From NCBI RefSeq assembly GCF_015751905.1, contig NZ_JADOUF010000001.1, positions 8,183,501 through 8,247,500 on the forward strand: a stretch of 64,000 bases of DNA, written 5' to 3'. This DNA is from Longispora fulva. GTDB lineage: Bacteria > Actinomycetota > Actinomycetes > Mycobacteriales > Micromonosporaceae. The notes below the pieces were generated by a model that was given only the letters and a program-made list of their open reading frames with translations, had not been told where the DNA came from and did no database searches. Position numbers and translations under genes: made by a program. Of this stretch, positions 40,053 to 55,214 are shown one piece after another; within the stretch, counting starts at the first letter, position 1, and each line of letters opens with the position of its first letter.

Positions 40053-40790
40053 CTAGATCCCGGTGGTCGACCGGATCCAGCTGTTCACGGCGGTCGCGTC
40101 GCCGTAGATGGAGTTCGTCTTGCCGCAGGTGTCCGCGCCGGGGCCGTCCGCGCCGCGGCTGGTGACGCCGACGAGCTTGCCGGCGGCGATGGCCGGGCCG
40201 CCCGAGTCGCCGTAGCAGTCGGTGGCGCTGGTGGAGGTGTCGAAGCACAGCTCGACCGGGCCGCTGATCCCGCCGCAGTTGGCGTCGGAGGTGACCGTGG
40301 TGCCGACCGACTTGAGCACCGAGCTCATGTCGCCGCAGCCGTACGGGGCGCAGGTCTGGCCGAAGCCGTACAGCGTGATCGCCGAGCCGACCGCCGGGGA
40401 CACCGTGCCGAGGGAGACCGGGGCCTGGCTGACGGGGCTGCTGAGCTTGTAGAGCCGGAAGTCGTACGCGCCACCGTTGTAGTTCGGGTGCTTGACCGAC
40501 CTGGACACCGTGGCCAGCGTGCCGCCACTGTTCAGGTTCTTCGAACCGATCCGGATCCGGGTCGCGCCGGAACAGTGCCCGGCGGTGAGCACCCACTGTG
40601 GTGCGACGAGGGTGCCGCTGCACCACATGCCGCTGCTGTCGCCGACGGCCGCGGCCCACGACGGGGCGGTGCCGACCGCGCCACCGCCGACGATGCCCTG
40701 GGCGGGCGGGGCGGCCGACGCCGGGGCGGAGGCGGCCGCGACGGCCAGCGCCGCTCCGGCGACCACTACTGCGAATCTGAGGAACTTCAT
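40053..40790 (-). CDS. Secreted trypsin-like serine protease (S1)
   Basis: The 245-residue product has a Sec signal peptide (MKFLRFAVVVAGAALAVAAASAPASA, cleavage near residue 26), a short propeptide and the mature start IVGGGAVGT. The catalytic triad is visible as His in VLTAGHC, Asp in YDFRLYKL and Ser in CYGDSGGPA. Paired cysteines fit disulfides. The protein is exported and probably processed at the Gly-Ile bond before IVGG. The 122 bases upstream carry its promoter, and a GC-rich hairpin follows the gene. Confidence 0.93.
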   Translation of the reverse strand: MKFLRFAVVVAGAALAVAAASAPASAAPPAQGIVGGGAVGTAPSWAAAVGDSSGMWCSGTLVAPQWVLTAGHCSGATRIRIGSKNLNSGGTLATVSRSVKHPNYNGGAYDFRLYKLSSPVSQAPVSLGTVSPAVGSAITLYGFGQTCAPYGCGDMSSVLKSVGTTVTSDANCGGISGPVELCFDTSTSATDCYGDSGGPAIAAGKLVGVTSRGADGPGADTCGKTNSIYGDATAVNSWIRSTTGI

Positions 40791-40912: not shown

Positions 40913-41611
40913 TCAGTGGCCAGATGTCAGGGGGCGATGCTCTGGCGTCCGCAGCATCCGCAGCGCCAGGTCCGCGTACAGCGCGCCGATGTCCTCCGGC
41001 CCCAGCCGGCCGGTGGAGCGGTACCACCTGGCCACGTCGATACTGAGGCTGAGCAGGGCGAGCGCTGTCCCCGGCACGTCGGGCACGTCGAACGCCCCGC
41101 GCGCCACCCCGTAGTCGAGGGTCTCGCGGACCACCCGGTCGATCTGCCGGCGCAGGGCCGCGATCTCGGCGTGGTGGGCCTCGCTGAGCGCCCCGAGCTC
41201 GTACTGGATCACCCGGGCCGTGGTGTGGTGCCGGGCGTGCCAGGCGGCGAAGTCGCTGACCACGGCGCGCATCCTGGCCACCGGGTCGGCGTCGCTGCCG
41301 GCCGCGTCGGTGATGGTCCGCAGGGTGCGTTGGTGGCCGATCAGGCTGATCCGGTAGAGGAGTTCCTCCTTGGAGCGGAAGTAGCCGTAGACCCCGGCGG
41401 GGGAGCGGCCGACCCGGCTGGCGATGTCGCGGGTGGTGGTCGCGTGGTAGCCCCGGGTGGCGAACGCCTCGACGGCGGCGATCAGGATCTGCCGGGCCGC
41501 CGGGGGCTGGACCTCCGACCAGTTCTCGTCGAGGGCCCGGGCCTCGGCCTCGTCCAGGCCGCCCTCGACGGGCGTTCGGGGGTCGTTGACATCGTGGTAC
41601 ATGACCAGCAT
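40913..41611 (-). CDS. TetR family repressor of the adjacent lipid-catabolism operon
   Basis: The 232-residue regulator has an N-terminal HTH at residues about 40-90 (AARQILIAAVEAFATRGYHATTTRDIASRVGRSPAGVYGYFRSKEELLYRI) and a TetR C-terminal ligand domain with many Arg and Leu residues, as in acyl-CoA-sensing members. ATG 41611 or 41602 could start it; neither has a ribosome site and the mRNA may be leaderless. The start abuts a palindrome CAAGCGCTTG, the likely operator shared with the divergent nine-gene operon. The ligand is probably an acyl-CoA. Confidence 0.87.
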   Translation of the reverse strand: MLVMYHDVNDPRTPVEGGLDEAEARALDENWSEVQPPAARQILIAAVEAFATRGYHATTTRDIASRVGRSPAGVYGYFRSKEELLYRISLIGHQRTLRTITDAAGSDADPVARMRAVVSDFAAWHARHHTTARVIQYELGALSEAHHAEIAALRRQIDRVVRETLDYGVARGAFDVPDVPGTALALLSLSIDVARWYRSTGRLGPEDIGALYADLALRMLRTPEHRPLTSGH

Positions 41612-41631
41612 TCTAAGCAAGCGCTTGATTA
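41612..41631. promoter_or_regulatory. TetR operator candidate
   Basis: CAAGCGCTTG (41618-41627) is a perfect 10-base palindrome with partly symmetric flanks (AAG / ATT). It lies between the divergent TetR start (41611) and the operon start (41672), where a repressor would block both promoters. The CAAGCGCTTG core is of the type bound by TetR/FadR-like regulators of lipid genes. Confidence 0.65.
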
Positions 41632-41671: not shown

Positions 41672-42409
41672 ATGGGGAACCTCAGCTACGACTTCTCTGG
41701 CAGAACGGTCATCGTCACGGGCGCGGCCCGCGGCATCGGCCTCGCACTCGGCGGGTTCTTCCAACAGGCCGGCGCGACCGTCTTCCTGGTCGACTTCGAC
41801 GCCGAGGAGCTGGCGAAGGCCGCAGGCAGCGTCGGCGCCACCGGCATCGCCGCCGACGTGAGCAGCACCGCGGACGTCGAGCGGGTCGTGACCGCAGCCG
41901 TCGAGGCCACCGGCCGGGTCGACATTCTGGTCAACAACGCCGGCATCCTCCGCGACAACGTGCTGTGGAAGATCTCCGACGAGGACTGGGACGCCGTGCT
42001 CGCGGTGCACGCCGGCGGCACCTTCCGGTTCACCCGGGCCTGCGTGCCGCACTTCCGGGCCCAGGGCTCCGGCCGGGTCGTCAACGTCACCTCCTACACC
42101 GGGCTGCACGGCAACACCGGCCAGGCCAACTACGCCGCGGCCAAGGCCGGCATCATCGGCTTCACGAAGACGGCGGCCAAGGAACTGGCCCACTTCGGGG
42201 TGACGGTCAACGCGATCTCCCCGAACGCGGAGACCCGCATGATCGCGTCCATCCCGGACGCCAAGCGCGCGGAGCTCACCGCGCACATCCCGATGGGCAG
42301 GTTCGCCGACCCGACGGAGATGTGCGCGGCGGTGGGCTTCCTGGCCTCCGACGAGGCCGGGTACATCACCGGGGCGGTCCTCCCGGTCGACGGCGGGATA
42401 AGCATGTGA
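41672..42409 (+). CDS. SDR family oxidoreductase, FabG-like
   Basis: This is the first gene of the operon. The 245-residue classical SDR has TGAARGIG at the cofactor site, NNAG, the catalytic Ser in NVTSYTG, YAAAK and a C-terminal PVDGGISM. Its architecture is that of 3-oxoacyl-ACP/CoA reductases. AGGAGG lies ten bases before ATG 41672. It overlaps the second SDR by four bases. In the operon it probably oxidises a 3-hydroxyacyl-CoA or another hydroxyacyl intermediate. Confidence 0.9.
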   Translation: MGNLSYDFSGRTVIVTGAARGIGLALGGFFQQAGATVFLVDFDAEELAKAAGSVGATGIAADVSSTADVERVVTAAVEATGRVDILVNNAGILRDNVLWKISDEDWDAVLAVHAGGTFRFTRACVPHFRAQGSGRVVNVTSYTGLHGNTGQANYAAAKAGIIGFTKTAAKELAHFGVTVNAISPNAETRMIASIPDAKRAELTAHIPMGRFADPTEMCAAVGFLASDEAGYITGAVLPVDGGISM

Positions 42410-43158
42410 CGCGCTTCGACGGGCAGGTCGCCCTCATCACCGGATCCAGCCGGGGCATCGGCTTCGGCATCGCCGAACGGCTCGTCGCCGAGGGGGCCAG
42501 GGTCTGCCTGACCGCCCGCAAGCCCGATGCCCTCGACGAGGCGGTCAAGGCCCTCGGCCCCGACCGCGCGATGGCCGTCGCGGGGAAGGCCGACGATCCC
42601 GAGCACCAGGCCGACACGGTCGCCCGGGTGCTCGACACCTTCGGCCGGCTCGACGTGCTGGTCAACAACACCGGGATCAATCCGGTGTACGGGCCGATGG
42701 TCGACGCGGACCCGGCGGCCGTCCGCAAGGTCTTCGAGGTCAACGTGTTCGCCGCGCTCGGCTGGGTCGGGCACGCGCACCGGGCCTGGTTCGCCGAACA
42801 CGGCGGTGCGGTCGTCAACGTGGCGTCCGTGGCGGGACTGCGGCCGGCCGCCGGGATCGGGATCTACGGCGCGAGCAAGGCGGCCCTGATCCACCTGACG
42901 ATGCAGCTCGCCGCAGAGCTGGGGCCGGACGTCCGGGTCAACGCCGTGGCCCCGGCGATCGTGAAGACGGTGTTCGCCGCGGCGCTGTACGAGGGACGCG
43001 AGCAGCGGGTGACCGACACGTACCCGTTGAAGCGGTTGGGGATTCCCGAGGACGTGGCCGGGGCGGTGGCGTTCCTGGCCTCGGCGGACGCGGGGTGGAT
43101 GACCGGGCAGACGGTGGTCGTGGACGGCGGGCTGACCCTGTCGGGCGGCCTGGGATGA
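42406..43158 (+). CDS. SDR family oxidoreductase
   Basis: The 250-residue classical SDR starts at GTG 42406, overlapping the previous stop (GTGA). It has TGSSRGIG, the variant NNTG in place of NNAG, Ser in NVASVAG and YGASK. The Arg and Lys in LTARKPD after the second strand suggest NADP. It is about as long as FabG. Its role beside the other two SDRs is probably a separate oxidation step on a chain or ring substrate. Confidence 0.88.
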   Translation: MTRFDGQVALITGSSRGIGFGIAERLVAEGARVCLTARKPDALDEAVKALGPDRAMAVAGKADDPEHQADTVARVLDTFGRLDVLVNNTGINPVYGPMVDADPAAVRKVFEVNVFAALGWVGHAHRAWFAEHGGAVVNVASVAGLRPAAGIGIYGASKAALIHLTMQLAAELGPDVRVNAVAPAIVKTVFAAALYEGREQRVTDTYPLKRLGIPEDVAGAVAFLASADAGWMTGQTVVVDGGLTLSGGLG

Positions 43159-43631
43159 CGGCCGGGCCCGCGCGGCGGTTCGGTTCCCTCGACGAGCTGC
43201 GCGCCGCGGCACCGGTCGACCTCGGCCACAGCGACTGGGTCGTCGTCGACCAGGAACGGATCGACCGGTTCGCGGCGGCCACCGGCGACGACCAGTGGAT
43301 CCACGTCGACCCGGTCCGGGCGGCCGACGGCCCCTTCGGGTCGACGATCGCGCACGGCTTCCTCGTGCTGTCCCTGCTGCCGGTGATCACCCTGGACCGG
43401 CTGCTCGTGGACCGGGTCCGGATGGCCGTCAACTACGGGCTGAACAAGGTCCGGTTCCCGGCGCCGGTGCCCGTCGACTCCCGGTTGCGCGGCCGGGTGC
43501 GGGTCACCGAGGTGACGGAGGTCGCCGGCGGCACCCAGGTGACGTGTCTCGTGACGGTCGAGCGCGAGGGCGGCGACCGGCCGGTCTGCGTCGCGGAGTC
43601 CGTGGCCCGCTTCTACGGGGAGGCCCCGTGA
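43155..43631 (+). CDS. MaoC family (R)-specific enoyl-CoA hydratase
   Basis: The 158-residue hotdog-fold protein matches MaoC dehydratases, with the catalytic pair in FAAATGDDQWIHVDPVRA (Asp and His) and GSTIAHGFLVLSLLP. It adds water to trans-2-enoyl-CoA. ATG 43155 overlaps the upstream stop (ATGA). It fits a beta-oxidation-type pathway with the neighbouring dehydrogenases. Confidence 0.92.
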   Translation: MTAGPARRFGSLDELRAAAPVDLGHSDWVVVDQERIDRFAAATGDDQWIHVDPVRAADGPFGSTIAHGFLVLSLLPVITLDRLLVDRVRMAVNYGLNKVRFPAPVPVDSRLRGRVRVTEVTEVAGGTQVTCLVTVEREGGDRPVCVAESVARFYGEAP

Positions 43632-44464
43632 CCACCCTCGCCGGTGCCGGCGTCGTGATCACCGGCGGCGGCTCGGGGATCGGGGCGGCCCTCGCCCGCC
43701 GGTTCGCCGCCGAGGGCGCCCGGATCGTGGTCAACGACCTCGACGCGACCGCCGCCGCCCGGATCGCCGCCGAGGTCGACGGCTGGGCCGCACCCGGCGA
43801 CGCGTCCACTCCGGACGGTGCCGCCGCTCTGGTCGGCACGGCGGTCGACCACCTGGGCGCGGTCGACCTGTTCTGCGCCAACGCCGGCGTCGGCACGGCC
43901 GGCGGCCCCGAGGCCCCCGACTCCGACTGGGACCTGGCCTGGCAGGTCAACGTGATGGCCCACGTCCGGGCCGCCCGGGCGCTGCTGCCGGGCTGGCTGG
44001 ACCGCGGCCGGGGCCACTTCCTGTCGACGGTGTCGGCGGCCGGGCTCCTGACCATGCTCGGCTCCGCGCCCTACTCGGTGACCAAGCACGGCGCGCTGGC
44101 GTTCGCCGAGTGGCTGGCGGCCACGTACGCCGACCGGGGGATCACCGTGCAGGCGCTGTGCCCGCAGGGGGTGCGCACCCCGATGCTGGAGGCCTCCGGG
44201 CGGGCCGGCCGGCTGATGCTCGACGAGACGGCGCTGACCCCGGAGCAGGTCGCCGACGCCGTGGTCGAGGCGCTGGCCGACGGCCGGTTCCTGATCCTGC
44301 CGCACCCGGAGGTCGCCGGGTACCACGCGGCGAAGGCCGCCGACCCGGAACGCTGGCTGACGGCGATGCGCCGGCTCCAGTCCCACCTGGACACCCCGGG
44401 GAGCGGCTCCACCCCGGCACGCCGGGACCGCGCGACCCACGACGACACGGAGGAGACCCGATGA
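43628..44464 (+). CDS. SDR family oxidoreductase with C-terminal extension
   Basis: The 278-residue SDR has TGGGSGIG, CANAG, Ser in STVSAAG and the catalytic YSVTK. Its C-terminus does not end in the usual DGG motif but carries an extra FLILPHPEVAGYHAAKAADPERWLTAMRRLQ, as in some cis-diol or long-chain alcohol dehydrogenases. GTG 43628 overlaps the MaoC stop and its own stop overlaps the next start, so it is coupled on both sides. Confidence 0.88.
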   Translation: MTTLAGAGVVITGGGSGIGAALARRFAAEGARIVVNDLDATAAARIAAEVDGWAAPGDASTPDGAAALVGTAVDHLGAVDLFCANAGVGTAGGPEAPDSDWDLAWQVNVMAHVRAARALLPGWLDRGRGHFLSTVSAAGLLTMLGSAPYSVTKHGALAFAEWLAATYADRGITVQALCPQGVRTPMLEASGRAGRLMLDETALTPEQVADAVVEALADGRFLILPHPEVAGYHAAKAADPERWLTAMRRLQSHLDTPGSGSTPARRDRATHDDTEETR

Positions 44465-45435
44465 GGGCCTGGCAGGTGACGCGGCTCGGGGAGCCGGTCG
44501 ACGTGATGGAACTGGCCGACGTCCCCACGCCCGCCCCCGGCCCGGGACAGATCCTCGTCCGGGTGCTGGCCGTGGCGCTGAACTTCCCGGACGCGCTGAT
44601 GTGCCGGGGCCAGTACCAGGTGCGGCCGCCGCTGCCGTTCACGCCCGGGGTGGAGCTGTGCGGCGAGGTGGTGACGGCGGGCGACGGCTTCGCGGTCGGG
44701 CAGCGGGTGATCGGCACGCCGGCCGCCACCTCCGGCGCGTTGGCCGACTACGCGCTGATGGACACGGCGGACACCTTCCCCGCGCCGGACGTTCTCGACG
44801 ACGCGCGGGCGGCGGCGTTCCACATCGGCTACCAGACGGCGTGGTTCGCCCTGCACCGCCGGGCCGGCCTGCGCGCGGGGGAGACCCTGCTCGTGCACGC
44901 GGCGAGCGGCGGGGTCGGCAGTGCCGCCGTCGAGCTCGGCCTCGCGGCGGGGGCGTACGTCATCGGCGTCGTGGGTGGCCCGGACAAGGTGCGGGTGGCT
45001 CATGACCTGGGCGTCGACCTGGTCATCGACCGGCATGCCGGGGACTTCGTGTTCCAGGTCAAGGAGGCCACCGGCGGCCGGGGCGCGGATGTCGTCTTCG
45101 ACCCGGTGGGCGGGTCGGCGTTCGAGCGGTCCACGAAGTGCGTCGCGTTCGAAGGGCGGATCGTGGTGGTCGGATTCGCCAGCGGCGTGATCCCTTCGCA
45201 GGCCATGAGCCACGTGCTGATCAAGAACTACTCGGTACTGGGCCTGCACTGGGGCCTCTACCGCCAGCAGGACCCCGACGCCGTCCGCGAGGCGCACCGC
45301 GAGCTGACGAAACTCGCCGAGGCCGAACTGGCCCGCCCGCTGATCGGCGAGCGGATCTCGTTCGACCAGGCCGCCGAGGGCATCGCCCGGCTCGCCGCCG
45401 GGGACACGGTCGGCCGGGTGGTGGTGACGCCGTGA
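44461..45435 (+). CDS. NADPH:quinone oxidoreductase family (zinc-free MDR) protein
   Basis: The 324-residue medium-chain reductase lacks zinc ligands. It starts MRAWQVTRLGEPVDVMELADVP, has the NADPH-binding ETLLVHAASGGVGSAAVELGLAAGAYVIGVVG and ends GRVVVTP. Members reduce quinones or 2-enoyl-CoAs. In this operon an enoyl-CoA reductase role is plausible but unproven. ATG 44461 overlaps the previous stop. Confidence 0.9.
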   Translation: MRAWQVTRLGEPVDVMELADVPTPAPGPGQILVRVLAVALNFPDALMCRGQYQVRPPLPFTPGVELCGEVVTAGDGFAVGQRVIGTPAATSGALADYALMDTADTFPAPDVLDDARAAAFHIGYQTAWFALHRRAGLRAGETLLVHAASGGVGSAAVELGLAAGAYVIGVVGGPDKVRVAHDLGVDLVIDRHAGDFVFQVKEATGGRGADVVFDPVGGSAFERSTKCVAFEGRIVVVGFASGVIPSQAMSHVLIKNYSVLGLHWGLYRQQDPDAVREAHRELTKLAEAELARPLIGERISFDQAAEGIARLAAGDTVGRVVVTP

Positions 45436-46466
45436 GCACGGCGGAACCGCGGCGCGGCGTGGACCTCGCGGCCCTGCGCGGCTGGCTCGACGCGTCCCAC
45501 CCGGGCCTCGTCACCGGGGACCTGACCGCCGAACGGATCGTGGGCGGCAAGTCGAACCTGACCTACGTGCTCGGCGACGGCACGCACCGCTGGGTGCTGC
45601 GCCGGCCCCCGATCGGGCACGTGCTGGCGACGGCGCACGACATGGGCCGGGAGTACACGGTGCTCGGCGCCCTGCGAGCCACGGCGGTGCCCGTGCCGGG
45701 GACCGTGGCGCACTGCCCGGACCCGGCGGTGCTGGGCGCGCCGTTCTACCTGATGTCCTACGTGGACGGCACGGTGTACCGCTCGGCGGCCCAGACGGCG
45801 GTGCTGGACCCGGCGCGGGCGAGGACCGTGGCGCACGCGCTGATGGACACCCTCGCCGACCTGCACGACGTGGAACCGGGCGCCGTCGGGCTCGAAGGCT
45901 TCGGCCGCCCAGACGGGTTCCTCGGACGCCAGCTGCGCCGGTGGAAAACCCAGCTCGACGCGTCCAGGGGGCGGGAGATACCGGGCATCGACGAGCTGCA
46001 CGCCGCCCTGGCCGCCGACGTGCCCGACAGCGGCCGGCCGGCGATCGTGCACGGCGACTACCGGCTCGACAACGTGCTGGTCGCCGCCGACGACACCATC
46101 GCGGCCGTCCTGGACTGGGAGATGGCCACCCTGGGCGACCCCCTCACGGACCTGGGCGTCTTCCTCGTCTACTGGACCGGCCTGGCGCACCTGCCCGCCA
46201 ACGCGGTGTCCGACGCCGTCACGGACAACTTCCCGGGCGGCCCCGAGCTGATCGAACGGTACGCGGCCCGGCGCGCGGTGGACCTGTCGCGGCTGCACTG
46301 GTACACGGCGTTCGGGTTCTTCAAGCTCGCGGTGATCGCCGAGGGCATCCACCACCGGTACACGGCGGGTCAGACCGTCGGCGGGGGCTTCGACAGGATC
46401 GGCGAGGTGGTCGCGCCGCTCGTCGGGCTGGGGCACGCCGCGCTGGCCGAGGACAAGGGGCACTGA
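45432..46466 (+). CDS. APH-fold kinase, ACAD10/11 N-terminal-domain type
   Basis: The 344-residue phosphotransferase resembles the kinase domain of human ACAD10/ACAD11 and of LvaA-type 4-hydroxyacyl kinases: IVGGKSNLTYVLGDGTHRWVLRRPPIGHVLATAHDMGREYTVLGAL, catalytic IVHGDYRLDNVLVA and metal-binding AVLDWEMATLGDPLTDLG. In ACAD10/11 this domain phosphorylates the 4-hydroxyl of a 4-hydroxyacyl-CoA before phosphate elimination by the dehydrogenase domain. The ACAD11-like gene follows with no gap (stop 46466, start 46467). GTG 45432 overlaps the upstream stop. Confidence 0.9.
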   Translation: MSTAEPRRGVDLAALRGWLDASHPGLVTGDLTAERIVGGKSNLTYVLGDGTHRWVLRRPPIGHVLATAHDMGREYTVLGALRATAVPVPGTVAHCPDPAVLGAPFYLMSYVDGTVYRSAAQTAVLDPARARTVAHALMDTLADLHDVEPGAVGLEGFGRPDGFLGRQLRRWKTQLDASRGREIPGIDELHAALAADVPDSGRPAIVHGDYRLDNVLVAADDTIAAVLDWEMATLGDPLTDLGVFLVYWTGLAHLPANAVSDAVTDNFPGGPELIERYAARRAVDLSRLHWYTAFGFFKLAVIAEGIHHRYTAGQTVGGGFDRIGEVVAPLVGLGHAALAEDKGH

Positions 46467-47648
46467 ATGGACTTCTCGTACGACGCGGAGACCGAGGAGC
46501 TGCGCGGGAGGCTGCTCGCGTTCATGGACTCGCACGTGTACCCGGCAGAGCCGGTGTTCGCCGAACAGGTCGCGGCCGGCGAGCGCTGGACCACCCCGCC
46601 GGTCATCGAGGACCTGAAGGCCGAGGCCCGCAGGCGCGGACTTTGGAACCTGTTCCTCCTGTCCAACCAGACGTACGCGCCCCTCGCCGAGATCACCGGC
46701 CGCAGCCCCTACCTGGCCCCCGAGGCGCTGAACTGCTCGGCACCGGACACCGGGAACATGGAAGTGCTGCACATGTTCGGCACCGGGGCGCAGAAGGAAC
46801 GCTGGCTGACGCCCTTGATGGCCGGCGAGATCCGGTCCGCGATCTGCATGACTGAGCCCGACGTGGCCTCCTCCGACGCCACGAACATCGCGACCAGCAT
46901 CGTCCGCGACGGCGACGACTACGTCATCAACGGCCGCAAGTGGTGGTCCTCCGGCGCGATGAACCCGCGCTGCGAACTCCTGGTCGTGATGGGCCGCACC
47001 GGTGGCGAGGACCGGCACCGCCAACAGAGCATGATCCTGGTACCCCGCGACACTCCCGGCGTCGACGTCCGGCGCGGCCTGCACGTGTTCGGCTTCGACG
47101 ACGGGCCGCACGGCGGGCACGCCGAGATCGCGTTCACCGACGTCCGGGTGCCGGCGGCGAACCTGGTCGCGGGCGAGGGCGAGGGGTTCGCGATCGCGCA
47201 GGCCCGCCTGGGGCCCGGCCGGATCCACCACTGCATGCGCCTGATCGGGATGGCCGAACGCGGCCTGGAACTGATGTGCCGCCGGGCTCAGGAGCGCACC
47301 ACCTTCGGGAAACCGATCGCCCAGCACGGCGTCGTCGCCGACTGGATCGCCGAGGCCAGGGTCCGGATCGAGCAGGCCAGACTCCTGGTCCTCAAGACGG
47401 CGTGGCTGATGGACACCGTCGGCAACAAGGGCGCGCACACCGAGATCCAGGCCATCAAGATCGTGACGCCGCGGATGGCCGAATGGGTGCTGGACAAGGC
47501 GATCCAGACCCACGGCGGCGGCGGGGTCAGCCAGGACTTCCCCCTCGCCGGGCTGTGGGCGGCGGCACGTTCGCTGCGGCTGGCCGACGGGCCCGACGAG
47601 GTGCACCGGATGTCGCTGGCCCGGCGGGAGCTGCGGCGGTACCCATGA
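46467..47648 (+). CDS. Acyl-CoA dehydrogenase, ACAD11-like
   Basis: The 393-residue protein follows the dehydrogenase domain of human ACAD11 closely: [105 protein letters not shown] and FGKPIAQHG. It binds FAD. The domain family converts 4-phospho-acyl-CoA to an enoyl-CoA by loss of phosphate. It sits directly after the APH-kinase gene and overlaps the HAD gene, the same three parts as ACAD10. Confidence 0.93.
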
Positions 47649-48292
47649 GAAAGGGTCTGCTGATCGACTGGGGCGGGGTGCTGACCTCCGACGTCTTCGC
47701 GTCCTTCGCCGGGTTCTGCGCCCGCGAGGGGCTGCCGGCGGACCGGGTGGCCACCCTGTTGCGAACCGAGGCCCACCCGCTCCTCGCCGGCCTGGAACTC
47801 GGCACACTGCCGGTGAACACCTTCGAAACCCGTTTCGCGGTACTCCTCGGCGTGCCCGCCGCCGGCCTCGTCCCCCGCCTGATGGCCGACCTGCGCCCCG
47901 ACCCGGCGATGCGCGCGGCCGTGCGCCGGGCCCGGGCGCTCGGCGTCCGCACCGGCCTGGTCTCCAACTCCTGGGGCCCCGACGGCTACACCGACCTGGC
48001 GGCGCTCTTCGACGGGGTGGTCCTCTCCGGCACGGTCGGCGTCCGCAAGCCCGACCCGGCGATCTACGAACTCGGCGCGGCGGCCATCGGCCTGACCCCG
48101 GCGGAGTGCGTGTTCGTCGACGACCTCGCCGGGAACCTGAGGCCGGCCCGAGCGCTGGGCATGGCGACCGTGCACCACAGCGACGCGGCCGACACGATCC
48201 GCGCCCTCGACACCCTGCTCGACCTCGACCTGTCCGGCCGCGACCGTGCCGGCACCGACCTTGCCAGCCTCGACCCGGGGGAGCCCCGATGA
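47645..48292 (+). CDS. HAD-family hydrolase
   Basis: The 215-residue HAD superfamily protein has motif [13 protein letters not shown], where the usual second Asp (DxD) is Gly; motif [10 protein letters not shown]; motif III Lys in GVRKPDP; and motif [11 protein letters not shown]. The same fold forms the N-terminal domain of ACAD10. The missing second Asp may change phosphatase activity. It overlaps both neighbours by four bases. Confidence 0.87.
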
Positions 48293-50076
48293 GCCACTAC
48301 CGCGCCAACCTCCGTGACCTGCGGTTCAACCTGTTCGAGGTGTTCGACCTGGATCTGGGCCGCTACCCGGACCTCGACCCCGACACCGTCGGCGACATCC
48401 TCGCCGAGGTCGAGCGGCTGGCCACCGGTCCGGTCGCCGAGTCCTTCGTGGAGTCCGACCGCACCCCGCCGGTCTACGACCCGGCCACCCACTCGGTGAC
48501 GATGCCCGAGGGCTTCCGCCGCTCGTACCGCGCGTACATGGACGCCGAGTGGTGGCGCCTCGACCTGCCCGTCGGCCTCGGCGGCACGGCGGCGCCCCGG
48601 ATGCTGTGGTGGGCCCTCGTCGAGATGGTCCAGGGTGCCCAGGCCCCCGTCTTCATGTACGGCGGCGGCCCGGCCTTCGCCGGCCTGCTCTACAACCTCG
48701 GCACCCCGGAGCAGCGCCGGATGGGCGAGGTGATGCTGGAGAAGCGCTGGGCCGGCACGATGGTGCTCACCGAACCCGACGCGGGCTCCGACGTCGGCGC
48801 GGGCCGGACCAGGGCCCTCCCGCAGCCCGACGGCACCTGGCACGTCGAGGGCGTCAAACGGTTCATCACCTCCGGCGAACACGACCTGGAGGACAACATC
48901 GTGCACTTCGTCCTGGCCCGCCCGGACGGGGCCGGCCCGGGCACGAAGGGCCTCTCCCTGTTCGTGGTGCCGAAGTTCCGCTTCGACCCGGCCACGGGCG
49001 AACTCGGCGAGCGCAACGGCGTGTACGCGACGAACGTCGAGAAGAAGATGGGAATCCGGGTGTCCACGACCTGCGAGCTGCGGTTCGGCGAGCACGAACC
49101 GGCCGTGGGCTGGCTGCTCGGCGAGGTGCACGAGGGCATCGCCCAGATGTTCAAGGTGATCGAGTCCGCCCGCATGCAGGTCGGCGTGAAGGCCATCGCG
49201 ACCCTGTCGACCGGCTACCTCAACGCCCTGGACTACGCCCGTTCCCGGGTGCAGGGGCCGGACCTGACCCGGGCGGCCGACAAGTCCGCGCCCCGGGTGA
49301 CGATCGACCGGCACCCGGACGTGCGCCGGATGCTGATGCTGCAGAAGGCGTACGCCGAGGGGCTGCGCGCCGTCTACCTCTACACGGCCGGCTGGCTGGA
49401 CCGGCCCGGCGACCCCGAACTCGCGGCCGGCCTGAACGACCTGCTGCTGCCGGTCGTGAAGGGCGTCGGCTCCGAGCGGTCCTACGAGATGCTGGCCCTG
49501 TCGTTGCAGACCCTCGGCGGCTCGGGGTTCCTCCAGGACTACCCGATCGAACAGTACGTCCGCGACACGAAGATCGACTCGCTGTACGAGGGCACCACCG
49601 GCATCCAGGGCCAGGACTTCTTCTTCCGCAAGATAGCCCGCGACAGCGGCGAGGCGTTCGCCGTGCTCACCGGGGAGATCGAGGAGTTCCTGGCAGGGCT
49701 CACGGGGTTCCCGACGGAGCGCGACGCGCTGGCCGCGGCGCTGGCGGACGTGCGCGGCATGGTGGACACGATGCTCGGCTGGCGGGACAAGGCCGGCGGC
49801 GACGCGAGCGAGGTGTACCGGATCGGCCAGAACACCACCCGACTCCTGATCAGCGTGGGGGACCTGGTGATCGGGTGGCTGCTGATCCGGCAGGCCCAGG
49901 TGGCGTCGGCGGCGCTGGCCACCGGGTCGGGGCAGGCCGACGCCGACTTCTATGCCGGCAAGCTGGCCGTCGCCCGGTTCTTCGCGACGACGGTCCTCCC
50001 GGAGCTGGGCGTCCGCCGCGCGGTGCTGGACGGCACGGACAACGCCCTGATGGACATCCCGGACGGCGCGTTCTGA
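48289..50076 (+). CDS. Large acyl-CoA dehydrogenase (about 600 residues)
   Basis: The 595-residue FAD enzyme begins with the helical N-terminal domain [15 protein letters not shown] and continues with the ACAD core: [63 protein letters not shown] and the C-terminal helices [39 protein letters not shown]. This long FadE type oxidises medium- or long-chain acyl-CoAs. It is the last gene of the operon, followed by a 15-bp hairpin. ATG 48289 overlaps the HAD stop. Confidence 0.93.
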
Positions 50077-50113: not shown

Positions 50114-50227
50114 TGGCTCCCTGGAGGTGCCGGAATCCTTCCCGGTGGGCGGAAAGTGGCTCCTTCCGGGCCGGTCCCGATGCGCAGACTCGTGGGCACC
50201 ACTTCCCCTCGAGTGTTCGGAGCTGCC

Positions 50228-51178
50228 ATGAGACGTCACAGGATCCTCGCGGTGGGCCTGGCCGCCCTGCTCCTCGGCGCGCTGTCCGGCGCCGGCCAGG
50301 CCGAGGCCACCCCGGTGGCCACCCAAGCCGCGCCCCAGGCCGGCGCACTGGCCGCGCCCGGTGGCGGCGCGCCCTACATCTACCCGGTCCTCGGCGGCAA
50401 GGACCCCGTGACCGTGATGCACCAGACCGGGGTGAAGGCGTTCACGCTCGCGTTCATCCTGGCGAGCAACGGGTGCAACCCGGTGTGGGACCAGGCCGGC
50501 GCGCTGTCCAACTCCGCGGTGAAGAACCGGATCGCCGCGATCCGGGGCGCGGGCGGCGACGTGGTCATCTCCTTCGGCGGCTACTCGGGCAACAAGCTCG
50601 GCAACGCGTGTTCGAGCGCGTCGGCGCTGGCGGGGGCGTACCAGAAGGTGATCGACGCCTACCAGCTCAAGACCATCGACATCGACCTGGAGGCCGGCGA
50701 GGTGTCCCAGGCGGCGAAGGTGCTCGGCGCACTGAAGATCACCAAACAGAAGAACCCGAACATCCAGATCGTCATGACCCTGGGTACCGGCGTCAACGGC
50801 CTCGAAGGCGCCGAGGCGAAGATCCCCGGCCAGGCGGTGTCCCTCGGCGCGACGGTGCACGTGTGGACGATCATGCCGTTCGACTTCGGCGGCCAGAGCG
50901 GCAGCGACATGGGCAAGCTCAGCCTGCAGGCCAGTGAGGGTCTGCACAGGCAGCTCAAGGCGGCCTACAAGACGAAGAGCGACGCGGAGATCTACGCCAT
51001 GCAGGGCATCTCCTCGATGAACGGCAAGACCGACGAGGGCGAGACCGTGACCGTGGCCAACTTCCGCACGATGCTCGGGTACGCCAACTCCCACCACCTC
51101 GCCCGCTACACCTTCTGGGAGCTCAACCGGGACGGCAAGCTCGACTACACGAAGGTGATCGCCCAGTTCACCGGCTGA
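50228..51178 (+). CDS. Secreted GH18 chitinase-like protein
   Basis: The 316-residue product starts with a Sec signal peptide (MRRHRILAVGLAALLLGALSGAGQAEA). The GH18 barrel follows, with the strand VVISFGGYSG and the catalytic motif TIDIDLEAGE, where the Glu of DLE is the proton donor, then FDFGGQSG in place of the usual YD substrate loop. It resembles single-domain streptomycete chitinase C-like proteins without a chitin-binding domain. It may act on chitin or another GlcNAc polymer. ATG 50228 has GGAG five bases upstream. It is a single gene followed by a hairpin. Confidence 0.88.
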   Translation: MRRHRILAVGLAALLLGALSGAGQAEATPVATQAAPQAGALAAPGGGAPYIYPVLGGKDPVTVMHQTGVKAFTLAFILASNGCNPVWDQAGALSNSAVKNRIAAIRGAGGDVVISFGGYSGNKLGNACSSASALAGAYQKVIDAYQLKTIDIDLEAGEVSQAAKVLGALKITKQKNPNIQIVMTLGTGVNGLEGAEAKIPGQAVSLGATVHVWTIMPFDFGGQSGSDMGKLSLQASEGLHRQLKAAYKTKSDAEIYAMQGISSMNGKTDEGETVTVANFRTMLGYANSHHLARYTFWELNRDGKLDYTKVIAQFTG

Positions 51179-51818: not shown

Positions 51819-52139
51819 TCAGGTCTCCGAGGTGACCCGGGCCAGGACCACGCCCCCGACGATCAGGGACAGCGCCGCGAGCCGGGCGGCGCTCACCGGA
51901 TCGCGGTGCACCACGATGCCGAGCACGATCGTGCCGACCGCGCCGATCCCGGTGAACACCGCGTACGCCGTCCCCACCGGCAGCCCGTTCATCGCCCGCG
52001 ACAGCAGGTACACCGACGCCGCGCCCAGGACGAAGCACACCAGGGTCGGCCACGGCCGGCTGAAGTTCTCCGTCGGCTTGACGCTCTGCGCCCACACCAC
52101 CTCCACGAGGCCGGCGAGGACGAGGACCACCCAGCTCAC
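51819..52139 (-). CDS. sugE: SMR family efflux protein, SugE/Gdx type
   Basis: The 106-residue four-helix membrane protein has the SugE/Gdx pattern: VSWVVLVLAGLVEVVWAQSVKPTENFSRPWPTLV with the membrane-embedded Glu in GLVEVVW, then LPVGTAYAVFTGIGAVGTIVLGIVV. Proteins of this subtype export guanidinium or small cations. GTG 52139 overlaps the azoR stop by four bases, so the two are co-translated under the divergent TetR. The lack of a guanidine riboswitch upstream points to another inducer. Confidence 0.87.
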   Translation of the reverse strand: MSWVVLVLAGLVEVVWAQSVKPTENFSRPWPTLVCFVLGAASVYLLSRAMNGLPVGTAYAVFTGIGAVGTIVLGIVVHRDPVSAARLAALSLIVGGVVLARVTSET

Positions 52140-52795
52140 GGCGCGGACGTGAACCGGGCGACCAGTTCGTCCACCTGAGCCAGGGCGGCGGCGTGCGAGG
52201 CCTCCTGATCCGGGCGGAGGTCGGCGAGCACGGGGTCGACGAGGGCGTTGGTCAGCTCCGTGGTCACGAACGTGACGTCGGTGACCGCGTAGTGCCCGGC
52301 GAAGAAGTCGCGCAGGTAGCGCTCCTGGTGGTCGAACGGCGCCCGCGGCGCCCCGGGCTGGTACGACCCGCCCCGCGCGCTCGCCACCACGAACGACCGC
52401 CCGGACAGGTCCATCCGGGGGAACGTCACCTGGTCGAGCCACGCCTTGAGCGCCGCGGGGACCGAGTAGTTGTACATCGGCGCGCCGATCAGGACCACGT
52501 CGGCGGCGACCAGCTCGTCGAGCAGCGGGGCGACGGTGGCCCACGCCGCGCGGCGGGCGGGGGTGGTGACGGCTTCGGCGTACCGGTCGATGTCCGTGAT
52601 CCGGTGGGTGAGGAGGTGGTCGCAGATCTCGGTCCAGGCCTCGCCGATCGGGGGCACGGGGCTGGCGACGAGGTCGCGGTGGGTGTAGGTCGACGCGGGG
52701 TTGGCGGCGCGCCAGGCAGTGGCGAACAGGCCGGTCAGGGTGCGCGAGAACGACCGGCTCCTGGCGCTGGAGTCGAGGTGCAGCAGGTGGGTCAT
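52136..52795 (-). CDS. azoR: FMN-dependent NADH-azoreductase
   Basis: The 219-residue flavodoxin-like NAD(P)H oxidoreductase starts MTHLLHLDSSARSRSFSRTLTGLFA (FMN phosphate loop) and has IGAPMYNYSVPAALKAWLDQV and SARGGSY (FMN ring contacts). It reduces azo compounds and quinones. ATG 52795 is preceded by GGAGG at six bases. It is the first gene of an azoR-sugE pair divergent from a TetR gene, which looks like a quinone or toxic-compound response unit. Confidence 0.9.
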   Translation of the reverse strand: MTHLLHLDSSARSRSFSRTLTGLFATAWRAANPASTYTHRDLVASPVPPIGEAWTEICDHLLTHRITDIDRYAEAVTTPARRAAWATVAPLLDELVAADVVLIGAPMYNYSVPAALKAWLDQVTFPRMDLSGRSFVVASARGGSYQPGAPRAPFDHQERYLRDFFAGHYAVTDVTFVTTELTNALVDPVLADLRPDQEASHAAALAQVDELVARFTSAP

Positions 52796-52810
52796 CGGAA
52801 GCCTCCGGGG

Positions 52811-52870
52811 TAAGTGGACACCGTGTCCGGTTATCACCGTAGCCATAAGTGGACGGGGCGTCCAGTTGTA
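52811..52870. promoter_or_regulatory. Two TetR operators between azoR-sugE and tetR
   Basis: TAAGTGGACACCGTGTCCGG starts at 52811 and contains the dyad GGACAC-C-GTGTCC (52816-52828). A second site TAAGTGGACGGGGCGTCCAG starts at 52846 and contains TGGACG-GGG-CGTCCA (52850-52864). The two sites share the TAAGTGGAC half and lie 35 bases apart in the divergent promoter gap, as expected for the TetR repressor encoded alongside. Confidence 0.8.
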
Positions 52871-52878
52871 GTAGGGTG

Positions 52879-53475
52879 ATGCGCGTGACCACCGACGTGC
52901 CCGGTCGGCCGGAGCCAGCCAGAGAGCGGGCCGACGCCGCCCGCAACCGCGCCCGGGTGCTCGCCGCCGCCGAGGAGCTGTTCGCCACGAAGGGCCCGGC
53001 GGCGGTCACGATGGAGGACATCGCCCGCGCGGCCGGCGTCGGCCGCGGCACCCTCTACCGGCGCTACCCCGACCGGGCCGCGATCGCCGTCGCGCTCCTC
53101 GACGAGCACGAGCGCGCCCTCCAGGAGCTCCTGCTGGGCGGCGAACCCCCGCTCGGCCCCGGCGCGCCCCCGGCGGCCCGACTCGCGGCCTTCTACGCCG
53201 CCATGACCGCCCTGCTGGAACGGCACCACCACCTGGTGCTCGGCGCGGAGACCGGCCACTCCCGCTTCGCCACCGGGGCGTACGGCTTCTGGCGCGCCCA
53301 CGTCCGTTCCCTGGTGGCGGCGGCCGGGGTCGCCGGTCCCGACGCGCTCACGGACGCGCTGCTGGCGCCCCTGGCTCCGGAGGTGTTCGACTACCAGCGC
53401 GCACGGGGCATCGGGGTCGCGGAGATCACGGCGGCTCTGACCCGTCTGGCGCACGGGGTCCTCACGGAACCGTGA
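52879..53475 (+). CDS. TetR family repressor of azoR-sugE
   Basis: The 198-residue protein has a TetR HTH at residues about 18-65 (ADAARNRARVLAAAEELFATKGPAAVTMEDIARAAGVGRGTLYRRYPDRAAIAVALLDEH) and a helical ligand domain with the typical SBP-like ETGHSRFATGAYGFWRAHV. ATG 52879 or GTG 52885 may be the start; the GTG has the better spacing from aggg. Two operator dyads lie directly upstream and probably let it repress itself and azoR-sugE. Confidence 0.9.
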   Translation: MRVTTDVPGRPEPARERADAARNRARVLAAAEELFATKGPAAVTMEDIARAAGVGRGTLYRRYPDRAAIAVALLDEHERALQELLLGGEPPLGPGAPPAARLAAFYAAMTALLERHHHLVLGAETGHSRFATGAYGFWRAHVRSLVAAAGVAGPDALTDALLAPLAPEVFDYQRARGIGVAEITAALTRLAHGVLTEP

Positions 53476-53645: not shown

Positions 53646-55214
53646 ATGACCACGATCTTCCTCACCACGACCATCCCCTACGTCAACGCCGCCCCGCACC
53701 TCGGCTTCGCCCTCGAGGCGGTGCAGGCCGACGTCCTCGCCCGGCACCACCGCCGCCGGGGCGACGACGTCCGGCTGCTCACCGGCACCGACGACAACTC
53801 ACTGAAGAACGTGCTCGCCGCCGAGGCTTCGGGGGTACCGGTCCGCCAGCTCGTCGACCGCAACGCCGCGGCGTTCGAGGCGTTGCGTACCCCGCTGGAC
53901 CTGTCCTTCGACGACTTCCTCCGCACGAGCGCCGACCCCCGGCACCCGGCCGGCGTCGAGCGGCTGTGGCGGGACTGCGCCCACGACCTGTACCGCTCCC
54001 GCTACGAGGGCCTGTACTGCGTCGGCTGCGAACACTACGTCGTCGACAGCTGCCCGGAGCACCCCGATCCGCCCCAGCTGATCGCCGAGGACAACTGGTT
54101 CTTCCGCCTGTCCCGGTACGCCGACCCGGTCCGCGACGCCATCACCTCCGGCCGGCTGCGGATCGAACCCGCCGCGCGCCGCAACGAGGTGCTCGCCTTC
54201 CTCGACGGTGGACTGCGCGACCTGTCCGTCTCCCGTTCCACAGACCGGGCCCGGGGCTGGGGGATCCCGGTCCCCGGCGACCCCGACCAGGTCGTCTACG
54301 TCTGGTGGGACGCGCTCGGCAACTACGTTTCCAGTCTCGACTACGGCACGGGCGGCGCGGCGTACGAGCGGTGGTGGGCCGGCGCGGACCGAAGGGTACA
54401 CCTGGTGGGCAAGGGCGTGCTGCGGTTCCACGCCGTCTACTGGCCGGCGTTGCTGTTGTCGGCGGGGCTCCCGCTGCCCACCGAGATCCTCGTGCACGAC
54501 TACCTGACGGTCGACGGCCACAAGATCAGCAAGTCGTCGGGCGTGGGGGTCGACCCGGTGGCCCTCGCGTCCCGGTACGGCACGGACGCCGTGCGCTGGT
54601 GGCTGCTGCGCGAGGTGCCCCGGGTCGGCGACGCGGACTTCACCGAGGCCCGCCTCATCGCCCGCGCGAACGGCGACCTGGCCGGCGGCGTCGGCAACCT
54701 CGTCCACCGCGTCACCACCCTGGCCCGCCGCCACGGCCTGACCTGGCCCGGGGCAGCGGGCCCGGGCCCGTCCGACGCCGGTGGGGTCGGGGCGGGCGCG
54801 CCGGACCCGGGTGCGTCGGGGGCCGGTGGGCTCGGGGTCGGCGCGGCGGGTCCGGGCGGGTCGGTGCCCGATGGGGTCGGGGATCCGGCCGCGCTGCTCC
54901 GCGCTTGTCGGGACGCGCCGGGCCTGGTCGACGCCGCGTTGGGGCTGGCGGACTTCCGCCGGGCCGTCGGGGCGGTGTGGACGATCGTCGAGGAGGCCAA
55001 CCGCTACCTGGAGCAGACCAGACCCTGGGAGCTGGCCCGGGCCGGGGTCCCGGTCGGCGGCATCCTCGCGGTGCTCCTGGACGCGTGCCGGGTACTCGGC
55101 GCGGAGCTGGCCCCCTTCGTGCCGGCGACGGCCGCCCGGGTCCTGGAGAGCTGCGCGCCCGTCGACGGCCGGCTCCCGGCCCCGCGCCCGGTGTACCCCC
55201 GACTCGAGCCCTGA
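53646..55214 (+). CDS. metG: Methionyl-tRNA synthetase (second type, with Gly-rich insertion)
   Basis: The 522-residue class I synthetase has the HIGH-type motif PYVNAAPHLGFALEAVQAD, a Cys-containing knuckle region (LYCVGCEHYVVDSCPEHP), VYVWWDALGNYVSS and the KMSKS motif as DGHKISKSSG, followed by the anticodon-binding helices. It charges tRNA-Met. Between the catalytic and anticodon domains lies a Gly/Ala-rich insertion of about 43 residues (positions near 376-420), which is not normal. It is probably a second MetRS paralog, because its sequence departs from the usual housekeeping type. Its ATG follows CGGAGG and the leader described above. Confidence 0.9.
   Translation: MTTIFLTTTIPYVNAAPHLGFALEAVQADVLARHHRRRGDDVRLLTGTDDNSLKNVLAAEASGVPVRQLVDRNAAAFEALRTPLDLSFDDFLRTSADPRHPAGVERLWRDCAHDLYRSRYEGLYCVGCEHYVVDSCPEHPDPPQLIAEDNWFFRLSRYADPVRDAITSGRLRIEPAARRNEVLAFLDGGLRDLSVSRSTDRARGWGIPVPGDPDQVVYVWWDALGNYVSSLDYGTGGAAYERWWAGADRRVHLVGKGVLRFHAVYWPALLLSAGLPLPTEILVHDYLTVDGHKISKSSGVGVDPVALASRYGTDAVRWWLLREVPRVGDADFTEARLIARANGDLAGGVGNLVHRVTTLARRHGLTWPGAAGPGPSDAGGVGAGAPDPGASGAGGLGVGAAGPGGSVPDGVGDPAALLRACRDAPGLVDAALGLADFRRAVGAVWTIVEEANRYLEQTRPWELARAGVPVGGILAVLLDACRVLGAELAPFVPATAARVLESCAPVDGRLPAPRPVYPRLEP

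Follow-up and report, generated by a model that had tools for sequence, protein, structure and literature searches.

An actinobacterial operon carrying separate genes for a kinase, an acyl-CoA dehydrogenase and a HAD protein that correspond to the three parts of ACAD10

Results and discussion

A predicted 4-hydroxyacyl-CoA route with a free-standing HAD gene

The present analysis concerns a nine-gene operon in Longispora fulva (order Mycobacteriales). It lies in a 64-kb stretch of DNA, referred to here as the window, which spans positions 8183501-8247500 of the 8.68 Mb single-contig genome and within which coordinates are counted. The operon occupies 41672-50076 of the plus strand and encodes, in order, two short-chain dehydrogenases (SDR1 and SDR2), a MaoC-like hydratase, a third short-chain dehydrogenase (SDR3), a quinone oxidoreductase-like (QOR-like) protein, an APH-fold kinase, an acyl-CoA dehydrogenase (ACAD), a HAD protein and a second, FadE5-like acyl-CoA dehydrogenase. 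Based on sequence comparison, the kinase and the ACAD probably provide a route from 4-hydroxyacyl-CoA to 2-enoyl-CoA in which the HAD protein would serve as a dedicated partner. The nine genes form a single, tightly coupled operon: neighbours overlap by 4 bp (ATGA or GTGA) at seven of the eight junctions, and at the kinase/ACAD junction stop and start codons follow one another with a gap of 0. A previous sequence-only reading had described the kinase (45432), ACAD (46467) and HAD (47645) genes as consecutive and coupled, and had listed three SDRs, a MaoC protein, a quinone oxidoreductase and a second acyl-CoA dehydrogenase beside them; starts, families and junctions confirm the trio, and all of the accompanying genes are present. 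Its further claim, that the three genes match the three domains of human ACAD10 and the first two match ACAD11, is supported by sequence and by the diagnostic residues.

Human and mouse ACAD10, an enzyme that readies 4-hydroxy fatty acids for degradation, shares the HAD, kinase and ACAD parts with the window, and the consulted portion of PMC11342911 describes an ACAD10 HAD that retains only the first Asp of the DxD motif. Measured against that published description, the window differs in having separate genes in the order kinase-ACAD-HAD, whereas ACAD10 is fused and ordered HAD-kinase-ACAD. Mouse and human ACAD11 match the kinase and the ACAD over near full length with the key residues kept, but ACAD11 is fused and has no HAD. 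The kinase-ACAD chemistry is known, and separate kinase and ACAD proteins have been described, namely LvaA and LvaC and the Burkholderia proteins replacing parts of ACAD10 (PMC11342911 and PMC12440821, in excerpt). In 2008 ACAD10 was already noted to contain hydrolase, kinase and ACAD domains and to have 'similar proteins' in bacteria, according to the extract of PMC2223070. What was less to be expected is a HAD encoded by a separate third gene; no report of a free-standing HAD partner gene was found in the open-access literature searched.

The dehydrogenase carries the phosphate-handling residues of ACAD11

Comparison of the window ACAD with solved structures returned ACAD11 (465 bits, E 1e-138) and 4hr3 (446 bits, E 1e-132), with the next-best ordinary ACAD structure at 157 bits (E 8e-45). 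Residues R626, H634, R637 and D753 of mouse ACAD11 have been tied to 4-phosphoacyl-CoA (Rashan et al., PMC12440821, in the sections used), and an extra proline, human Pro463, was added as a diagnostic residue by Paquay et al. (PMC11342911, likewise in part). R247, R252, H255, R258 and D374 of the window protein align with mouse ACAD11 R626, R631, H634, R637 and D753, and its P85 equals human Pro463 when counted along the alignment with ACAD11. These six residues are invariant in 18 aligned ACADs (window included). Seven further ACADs of the genome, namely the FadE5-like enzyme and six other matches, lack the Arg/His/Arg/Asp set, of which one of them (L014) has only an Arg at the R258 position; the base position of the seven is Glu in five and P and G in the remaining two. 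A single ACAD of the ACAD10/11 type is present in the genome at E <= 1e-20, the next match being 34% identical. By these sequence criteria, which include the Arg, the His-Cys-Met-Arg set, the Asp base and the extra Pro, the window ACAD groups with the ACAD10/11-LvaC type and not with ordinary ACADs. The window's sister row in a quick ACAD tree is Allorhizocola rhizosphaerae (Micromonosporaceae), with a support of 89 that falls under the tree's 95 mark.

The kinase retains its catalytic residues

Structural matches of the kinase were led by 9o56 (E 4.5e-58), the kinase domain of ACAD11 (1.5e-50) and 3dxp (3e-45), with other kinases starting from 1e-12. D209, N214 and R166 of the window kinase align with D220, N225 and R176 of mouse ACAD11, and these three, R166 lying on the CoA side, do not vary among 16 aligned kinases, that of the window being one of them. 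At the place of a second Arg, R86 in the published work, no Arg is found by the numbering used here; an Arg beside a conserved Glu (R73-E74) is invariant in the same 16 kinases. The alignments indicate intact catalytic residues on a PKL/APH fold of the LvaA/ACAD10-11 kinase type.

APH-fold kinases are many and varied, with 47 PF01636 matches in this genome, and the majority of the operon genes are ordinary beta-oxidation types. Both facts would suit an operon for general or branched-chain beta-oxidation whose kinase has a substrate other than 4-hydroxyacyl-CoA. We judge this to be very unlikely, as the window kinase is the genome's top PF01636 match, stands near the ACAD11 kinase domain and is encoded directly against an ACAD with the phosphate-handling residues.

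Kinase, HAD, MaoC, SDR and QOR genes accumulate near the ACAD gene

To place the operon among its relatives, 60 stretches (~20 kb each) drawn from the ACAD-bearing genomes of the order were combined with 80 named loci (the best 80 of 594 confirmed) into a set of 140 loci. The ACAD type was found at E <= 1e-100 in 263 of the 298 genomes surveyed from the order, which points to a widespread entry route for 4-hydroxy acids among actinobacteria. A kinase was present in 102 of the 140 loci, and in 86 its gene immediately preceded the ACAD gene on the same strand. In the 54 of the 60 stretches with the ACAD centred, matches closer than 4 kb to the ACAD were compared with those farther than 6 kb (nominally 497 kb near and 362 kb far). 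The near and far matches numbered 39 and 1 for the kinase, 15 and 0 for the HAD, 21 and 0 for MaoC, 25 and 3 for SDR1, 15 and 3 for SDR2, 24 and 2 for SDR3, and 11 and 2 for QOR. Co-location of the kinase, HAD, MaoC, SDR and QOR genes with the ACAD gene exceeds chance. The genes for SDR2, SDR3, QOR, SDR1, MaoC, the kinase and the ACAD reappear in varying order across the related loci, and eight of 60 Pseudomonadota loci (L311-L318) carry a kinase-MaoC-SDR block facing the ACAD gene. These 60 Pseudomonadota loci, taken together with 12 of the 80 named loci that are also among the 140, make up a second set of 72. No frame holding two of the HAD, kinase and ACAD parts occurred in the 200 distinct loci of both sets (140 + 72, 12 shared); the same survey returned one frame with two SDR matches.

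Proposed pathway

Gene identities, coupling, diagnostic residues and repeated co-location are observed; each reaction, the substrate and the roles of the regulator and the HAD protein are predictions. In the proposed scheme the kinase would phosphorylate the 4-hydroxyl of a 4-hydroxyacyl-CoA to give a 4-phosphoacyl-CoA, from which the ACAD10/11-type dehydrogenase, with FAD as a rebound cofactor, would eliminate phosphate to yield a 2-enoyl-CoA. MaoC would hydrate this product and an SDR would then oxidise it to a 3-ketoacyl-CoA; the recurrence of MaoC and SDR genes beside the pair fits the steps expected after an enoyl-CoA product. SDR1 is a candidate 3-hydroxyacyl-CoA dehydrogenase by sequence. 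The remaining SDRs and the QOR-like enzyme may act upstream (4-oxo or enone reduction), and the FadE5-like enzyme may serve later rounds. CoA activation and thiolysis would be supplied from elsewhere in the genome, because the operon has neither a CoA ligase nor a thiolase. The HAD protein would limit the phosphorylated intermediate in one of two ways: it would dephosphorylate 4-phosphoacyl-CoA, or it would restrain the kinase in the manner of the ACAD10 HAD domain. The sequence-only reading had proposed a full route for gamma-hydroxylated or branched acids. The completeness of this route is not supported, as the ten genes scanned against Pfam (the operon and the TetR gene) gave no acyl-CoA ligase, thiolase, lactonase or transporter. 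For the particular substrates named (levulinate, 4-hydroxyvalerate and branched acids) no supporting evidence was found.

The closest bacterial precedent is the levulinate (lva) operon of Pseudomonas putida, which, compared by description, likewise has separate kinase, ACAD and SDR genes with the same predicted reactions. Several features set the two apart: the P. putida operon has LvaB, LvaE and a sigma54-type regulator (PMC6692424, in the portion cited), and the window has HAD, MaoC, QOR, FadE5-like and TetR genes. The window operon might accordingly be an actinobacterial counterpart for levulinate, a 4-oxo acid, with an SDR first reducing 4-oxoacyl-CoA to 4-hydroxyacyl-CoA. The kinase, ACAD and SDR do correspond in kind to LvaA, LvaC and LvaD as the extract of PMC6692424 presents them, and with three SDRs one would be spare for 4-oxo reduction; family models single out none of the three as LvaD. 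The substrate of an SDR, however, is unreadable from sequence. No CoA synthetase (LvaE) occurs among the nine genes, and a TetR regulator stands in place of the sigma54-type LvaR of that extract. We therefore consider a levulinate operon unlikely. In the comparison with lva operons that the sequence-only reading had proposed, the kinase and the ACAD are of the lva kind, and neither an lvaE synthetase nor a sigma54-type LvaR appeared in the Pfam scan of the ten genes.

The HAD protein has a DxGG motif on a predicted epoxide hydrolase-like phosphatase fold

The best NCBIfam model for the HAD protein was TIGR02247 (epoxide hydrolase N-terminal-like), at 88.3 bits and below its cut-off of 125.4. 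Motif I reads D8-W-G-G, in which Gly replaces the second Asp of DxD. D8, S107, K135, D159 and D160 are invariant in 16 aligned members, so a dead enzyme seems unlikely. Among the genome's six other HAD matches, four have DxD and one has DxGG; in the remaining one, motif I was not found. The DxGG paralogue (L229, G000:C1:8138954-8139535) lies outside the window, and no kinase or ACAD of this type was found in the surrounding 16 kb fetched.

The AlphaFold model of the window HAD (pLDDT 90.5) has soluble epoxide hydrolase (sEH) as its closest fold, the phosphatase domain alone (5mwa) giving a TM of 0.77/0.79; 3cnh and then YihX (8pne, TM 0.72/0.77) follow. The phosphatase domain of sEH acts on phosphorylated hydroxy lipids. 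Identity to the sEH N-terminal phosphatase domain and to E. coli YihX is ~22%, and both occur in another context. The single Asp kept from DxD is a trait shared with the HAD domain of ACAD10, for which Paquay et al. (PMC11342911, in the passages drawn upon) reported negligible phosphatase activity on 4-P-OH-C6-CoA together with restraint of the kinase. A bacterial operon in which the HAD is separable and has the same motif change makes the role of the ACAD10 HAD domain a testable question.

Linkage of the HAD gene to the kinase/ACAD pair

The HAD model used for the survey (A2) was assembled from rows chosen for their resemblance to the window HAD, wherever they lay within the 20 kb stretches. 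Its rows are all ACAD-linked by choice, and genome-wide counts were split into model rows and others for this reason. Among the 140 loci, 20 had a HAD at 244 bits or more, all at most 2.6 kb from the ACAD when measured between gene edges (3.2 kb between gene starts), and one weak match (103 bits) lay 6.1 kb away. Fifteen of these 20 linked HADs are rows of the model and five are independent. DxGG was present in all 20 (19 by pattern and L175 by reading). The linked HADs showed at least three layouts (upstream, downstream and divergent), and 11 of the 140 loci, among them those of Longimycelium tulufanense (L120) and Nocardioides terrae (L153), had HAD-kinase-ACAD on one strand, which matches the arrangement of domains in ACAD10. 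The linked-HAD label required 14 changes on a quick tree of 201 ACADs, against a shuffled mean of 20.3, with at least six of the 14 forced by well-supported branches; the link has therefore seemingly been made or lost repeatedly.

Searched against the 298 genomes, the model gave 34 matches of at least 208 bits, 16 of which are its own rows (window included). Of the other 18, 11 fell within 4 kb of a listed ACAD position (compared by eye). The seven that did not comprise three in genomes without an ACAD at 1e-100 and four without an ACAD in the fetched stretch, one of these stretches being a 4.5 kb contig. There were 38 weaker matches. Six were fetched, with three beside an ACAD, one with an ACAD and a kinase ~4-5 kb away and two with neither; among the 32 not fetched, one (G110) adjoins an ACAD by listed positions. 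No HAD was found in the 72 mostly Pseudomonadota loci. In whole Pseudomonadota genomes, weak HAD matches (109-116 bits) were detected in seven of 299 (L329-L335), with DxGG in all seven; each of these genomes also has an ACAD10/11-type gene, and no kinase or ACAD was found within 1.5 kb on either side of the weak HAD.

Several of the results weigh against a kinase/ACAD route with the HAD as its dedicated partner. A linked HAD is missing from 120 of the 140 loci, and the HAD is therefore optional. Seven of the 18 strong matches that are not model rows stand apart from an ACAD, so the HAD may have other work too, and the DxGG paralogue of the same genome is not beside a kinase/ACAD pair. If the partner is taken to be a simple phosphatase, the negligible activity of the ACAD10 HAD counts against it. 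With regard to the route, the examined stretch held no kinase at 38 of the 140 ACAD loci. The kinase was within 4 kb of the ACAD in 40 of the 72-locus set and on the same strand in 26, so the pair looks looser outside the actinobacterial set. CoA ligase and thiolase are absent from the operon by Pfam scan. Near and far matches were 2 and 3 for TetR and 0 and 0 for the FadE5-like gene, and these two are therefore not shown as conserved members.

The HAD might accordingly be a bystander, a housekeeping phosphatase that travels in fatty-acid operons while the pair acts as predicted. The loci without a HAD, the unlinked strong matches and the paralogue elsewhere in the genome all speak for this explanation, which we nevertheless hold to be rather unlikely. 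It fits poorly with strong matches that lie close to the ACAD in 20 of 20 cases and that fall entirely on the near side in the 54 stretches, with a link that changed so often on the ACAD tree and in so many layouts, and with the fusion of the same three parts in ACAD10. The dedicated-partner reading thus remains the one we prefer.

Histidine phosphatases occupy a similar position in other loci

In an Acidobacteriota locus (L185) a histidine phosphatase (PF00300) is encoded between the kinase and the ACAD. Including this locus, a strong histidine phosphatase within 4 kb, on the ACAD strand and accompanied by a kinase was present in five of the 72 loci, and all five have the RHG motif; weak matches (24-26 bits, three loci) were excluded from the count. 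The levulinate cluster of Pseudomonas citronellolis, as far as the portion of PMC6692424 describes it, resembles the window in having a phosphatase-type gene beside the kinase and ACAD, but that gene is a histidine phosphatase, the fold of which differs from that of the window HAD. LvaA of P. putida functions together with a small protein, LvaB (PMC6692424, citing Rand et al. 2017, in the part used).

A role as a check on either the phosphorylated intermediate or the kinase is favoured for the HAD because two unrelated phosphatase folds adjoin the pair and ACAD10 fuses the same trio; we infer this with modest confidence. A more general idea, which we put forward tentatively and regard as possible rather than likely, is that the kinase-ACAD pair requires a control on its phosphorylated CoA intermediate and that unrelated phosphatase folds have come to fill this slot on at least two occasions. 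One would be the DxGG HAD of actinobacteria and, in fused form, of ACAD10; the other would be the histidine phosphatase of some Pseudomonadota and of an Acidobacteriota genome. If this were true, the ACAD10 HAD would derive from, or have arisen in parallel to, a functional partner enzyme, and partner activity would be measurable in the free-standing bacterial HAD, which keeps its other catalytic motifs. Because the HAD is separable and relatives exist with a HAD, without one or with an unrelated phosphatase, its role can be tested by gene removal and protein mixing.

Other genes of the operon

Table 1 Features of the operon and its upstream region in the window
Feature	Position	Strand	Supporting match
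TetR-family regulator, divergent from the operon	40913..41611	-	PF00440 + PF17932
Candidate operator AGCAAGCGCTTGAT	41616..41629	.	Palindrome between TetR and SDR1; function inferred
SDR1, FabG-like short-chain dehydrogenase	41672..42409	+	PF13561, E 1e-57
SDR2, short-chain dehydrogenase	42406..43158	+	NF005559 subfamily, 308 bits (cut-off 215 exceeded)
MaoC-like hydratase, candidate enoyl-CoA hydratase	43155..43631	+	PF01575, E 4e-24
SDR3, short-chain dehydrogenase	43628..44464	+	PF00106, E 2e-38
Quinone oxidoreductase/enone reductase-like MDR protein (QOR)	44461..45435	+	PF00107, PF08240
APH-fold kinase, predicted 4-hydroxyacyl-CoA kinase (LvaA/ACAD11-kinase type)	45432..46466	+	PF01636, E 9e-52
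ACAD10/11-LvaC-type dehydrogenase, predicted 4-phosphoacyl-CoA to 2-enoyl-CoA	46467..47648	+	Acyl-CoA_dh families
HAD phosphatase-like protein, predicted kinase/ACAD partner	47645..48292	+	PF00702, E 6e-11
FadE5-like acyl-CoA dehydrogenase, C-terminal PF12806 domain	48289..50076	+	6ksb, E 1.3e-238

The best NCBIfam models for SDR1 are FabG-type, the top one scoring below its cut-off, and the best model for the QOR-like protein, TIGR02824, likewise falls below its cut-off (214.6 against 296.8 bits). The last gene of the operon encodes a full-length match to mycobacterial FadE5 (6kse, an entry named FadE5; E 1.6e-231). The window enzyme has Glu at the base position and no Arg/His/Arg set; judged by this Glu base, it is an ordinary dehydrogenase. 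A close relative (884 bits) is present in an Allorhizocola cluster (L112).

Regulator and candidate operator

The TetR-family gene may start at ATG 41611 or 41602, its reading frame being open from ATG 41611. Its divergent orientation and the palindrome between it and SDR1 make TetR control of the operon plausible. The best solved relative of the regulator is 3him (E 6e-41, 143.8 bits), with KstR2 structures at about 6e-12 (49 bits). An identity as KstR2 was rejected on this ground, and the protein, being much nearer to 3him, is called no more than TetR-family. The palindrome resembles the KstR2 motif; the regulator itself is not especially near KstR2.

Exact ANCAAGNNCTTGNT occurs at a single site in the genome, and the backwards control pattern at six. 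With up to one mismatch, one match was found in the window where 0.20 was expected. Since the backwards pattern is commoner, the motif is not enriched and its placement is the argument. The exact site was also found in four other loci among 328. With a single genomic site and so few other loci, the palindrome was rejected as regulon evidence and is regarded as a candidate local operator, nothing beyond. Locus L077 (genome G049) has four exact ANCAAGNNCTTGNT sites within 20 kb (4069, 6586, 10575 and 11399), one of them ~43 bp upstream of an ACAD10/11-type gene, which suggests a local regulon with the same kind of operator.

Neighbouring genes

Adjoining the TetR gene, a trypsin-family serine protease (PF00089) is encoded on the minus strand at 40053-40790. 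Directly after the operon, a plus-strand gene at 50156-51178 encodes a secreted-looking protein of 340 aa with no Pfam match at 0.001, which by eye is similar to a chitinase-type (GH18) barrel. It is followed by a divergent pair consisting of a flavodoxin-fold quinone/FMN reductase (52136-52846, minus strand) and a TetR regulator (52849-53475, plus strand), and by a methionyl-tRNA-synthetase-like protein of 522 aa (53646-55214, plus strand; PF09334).

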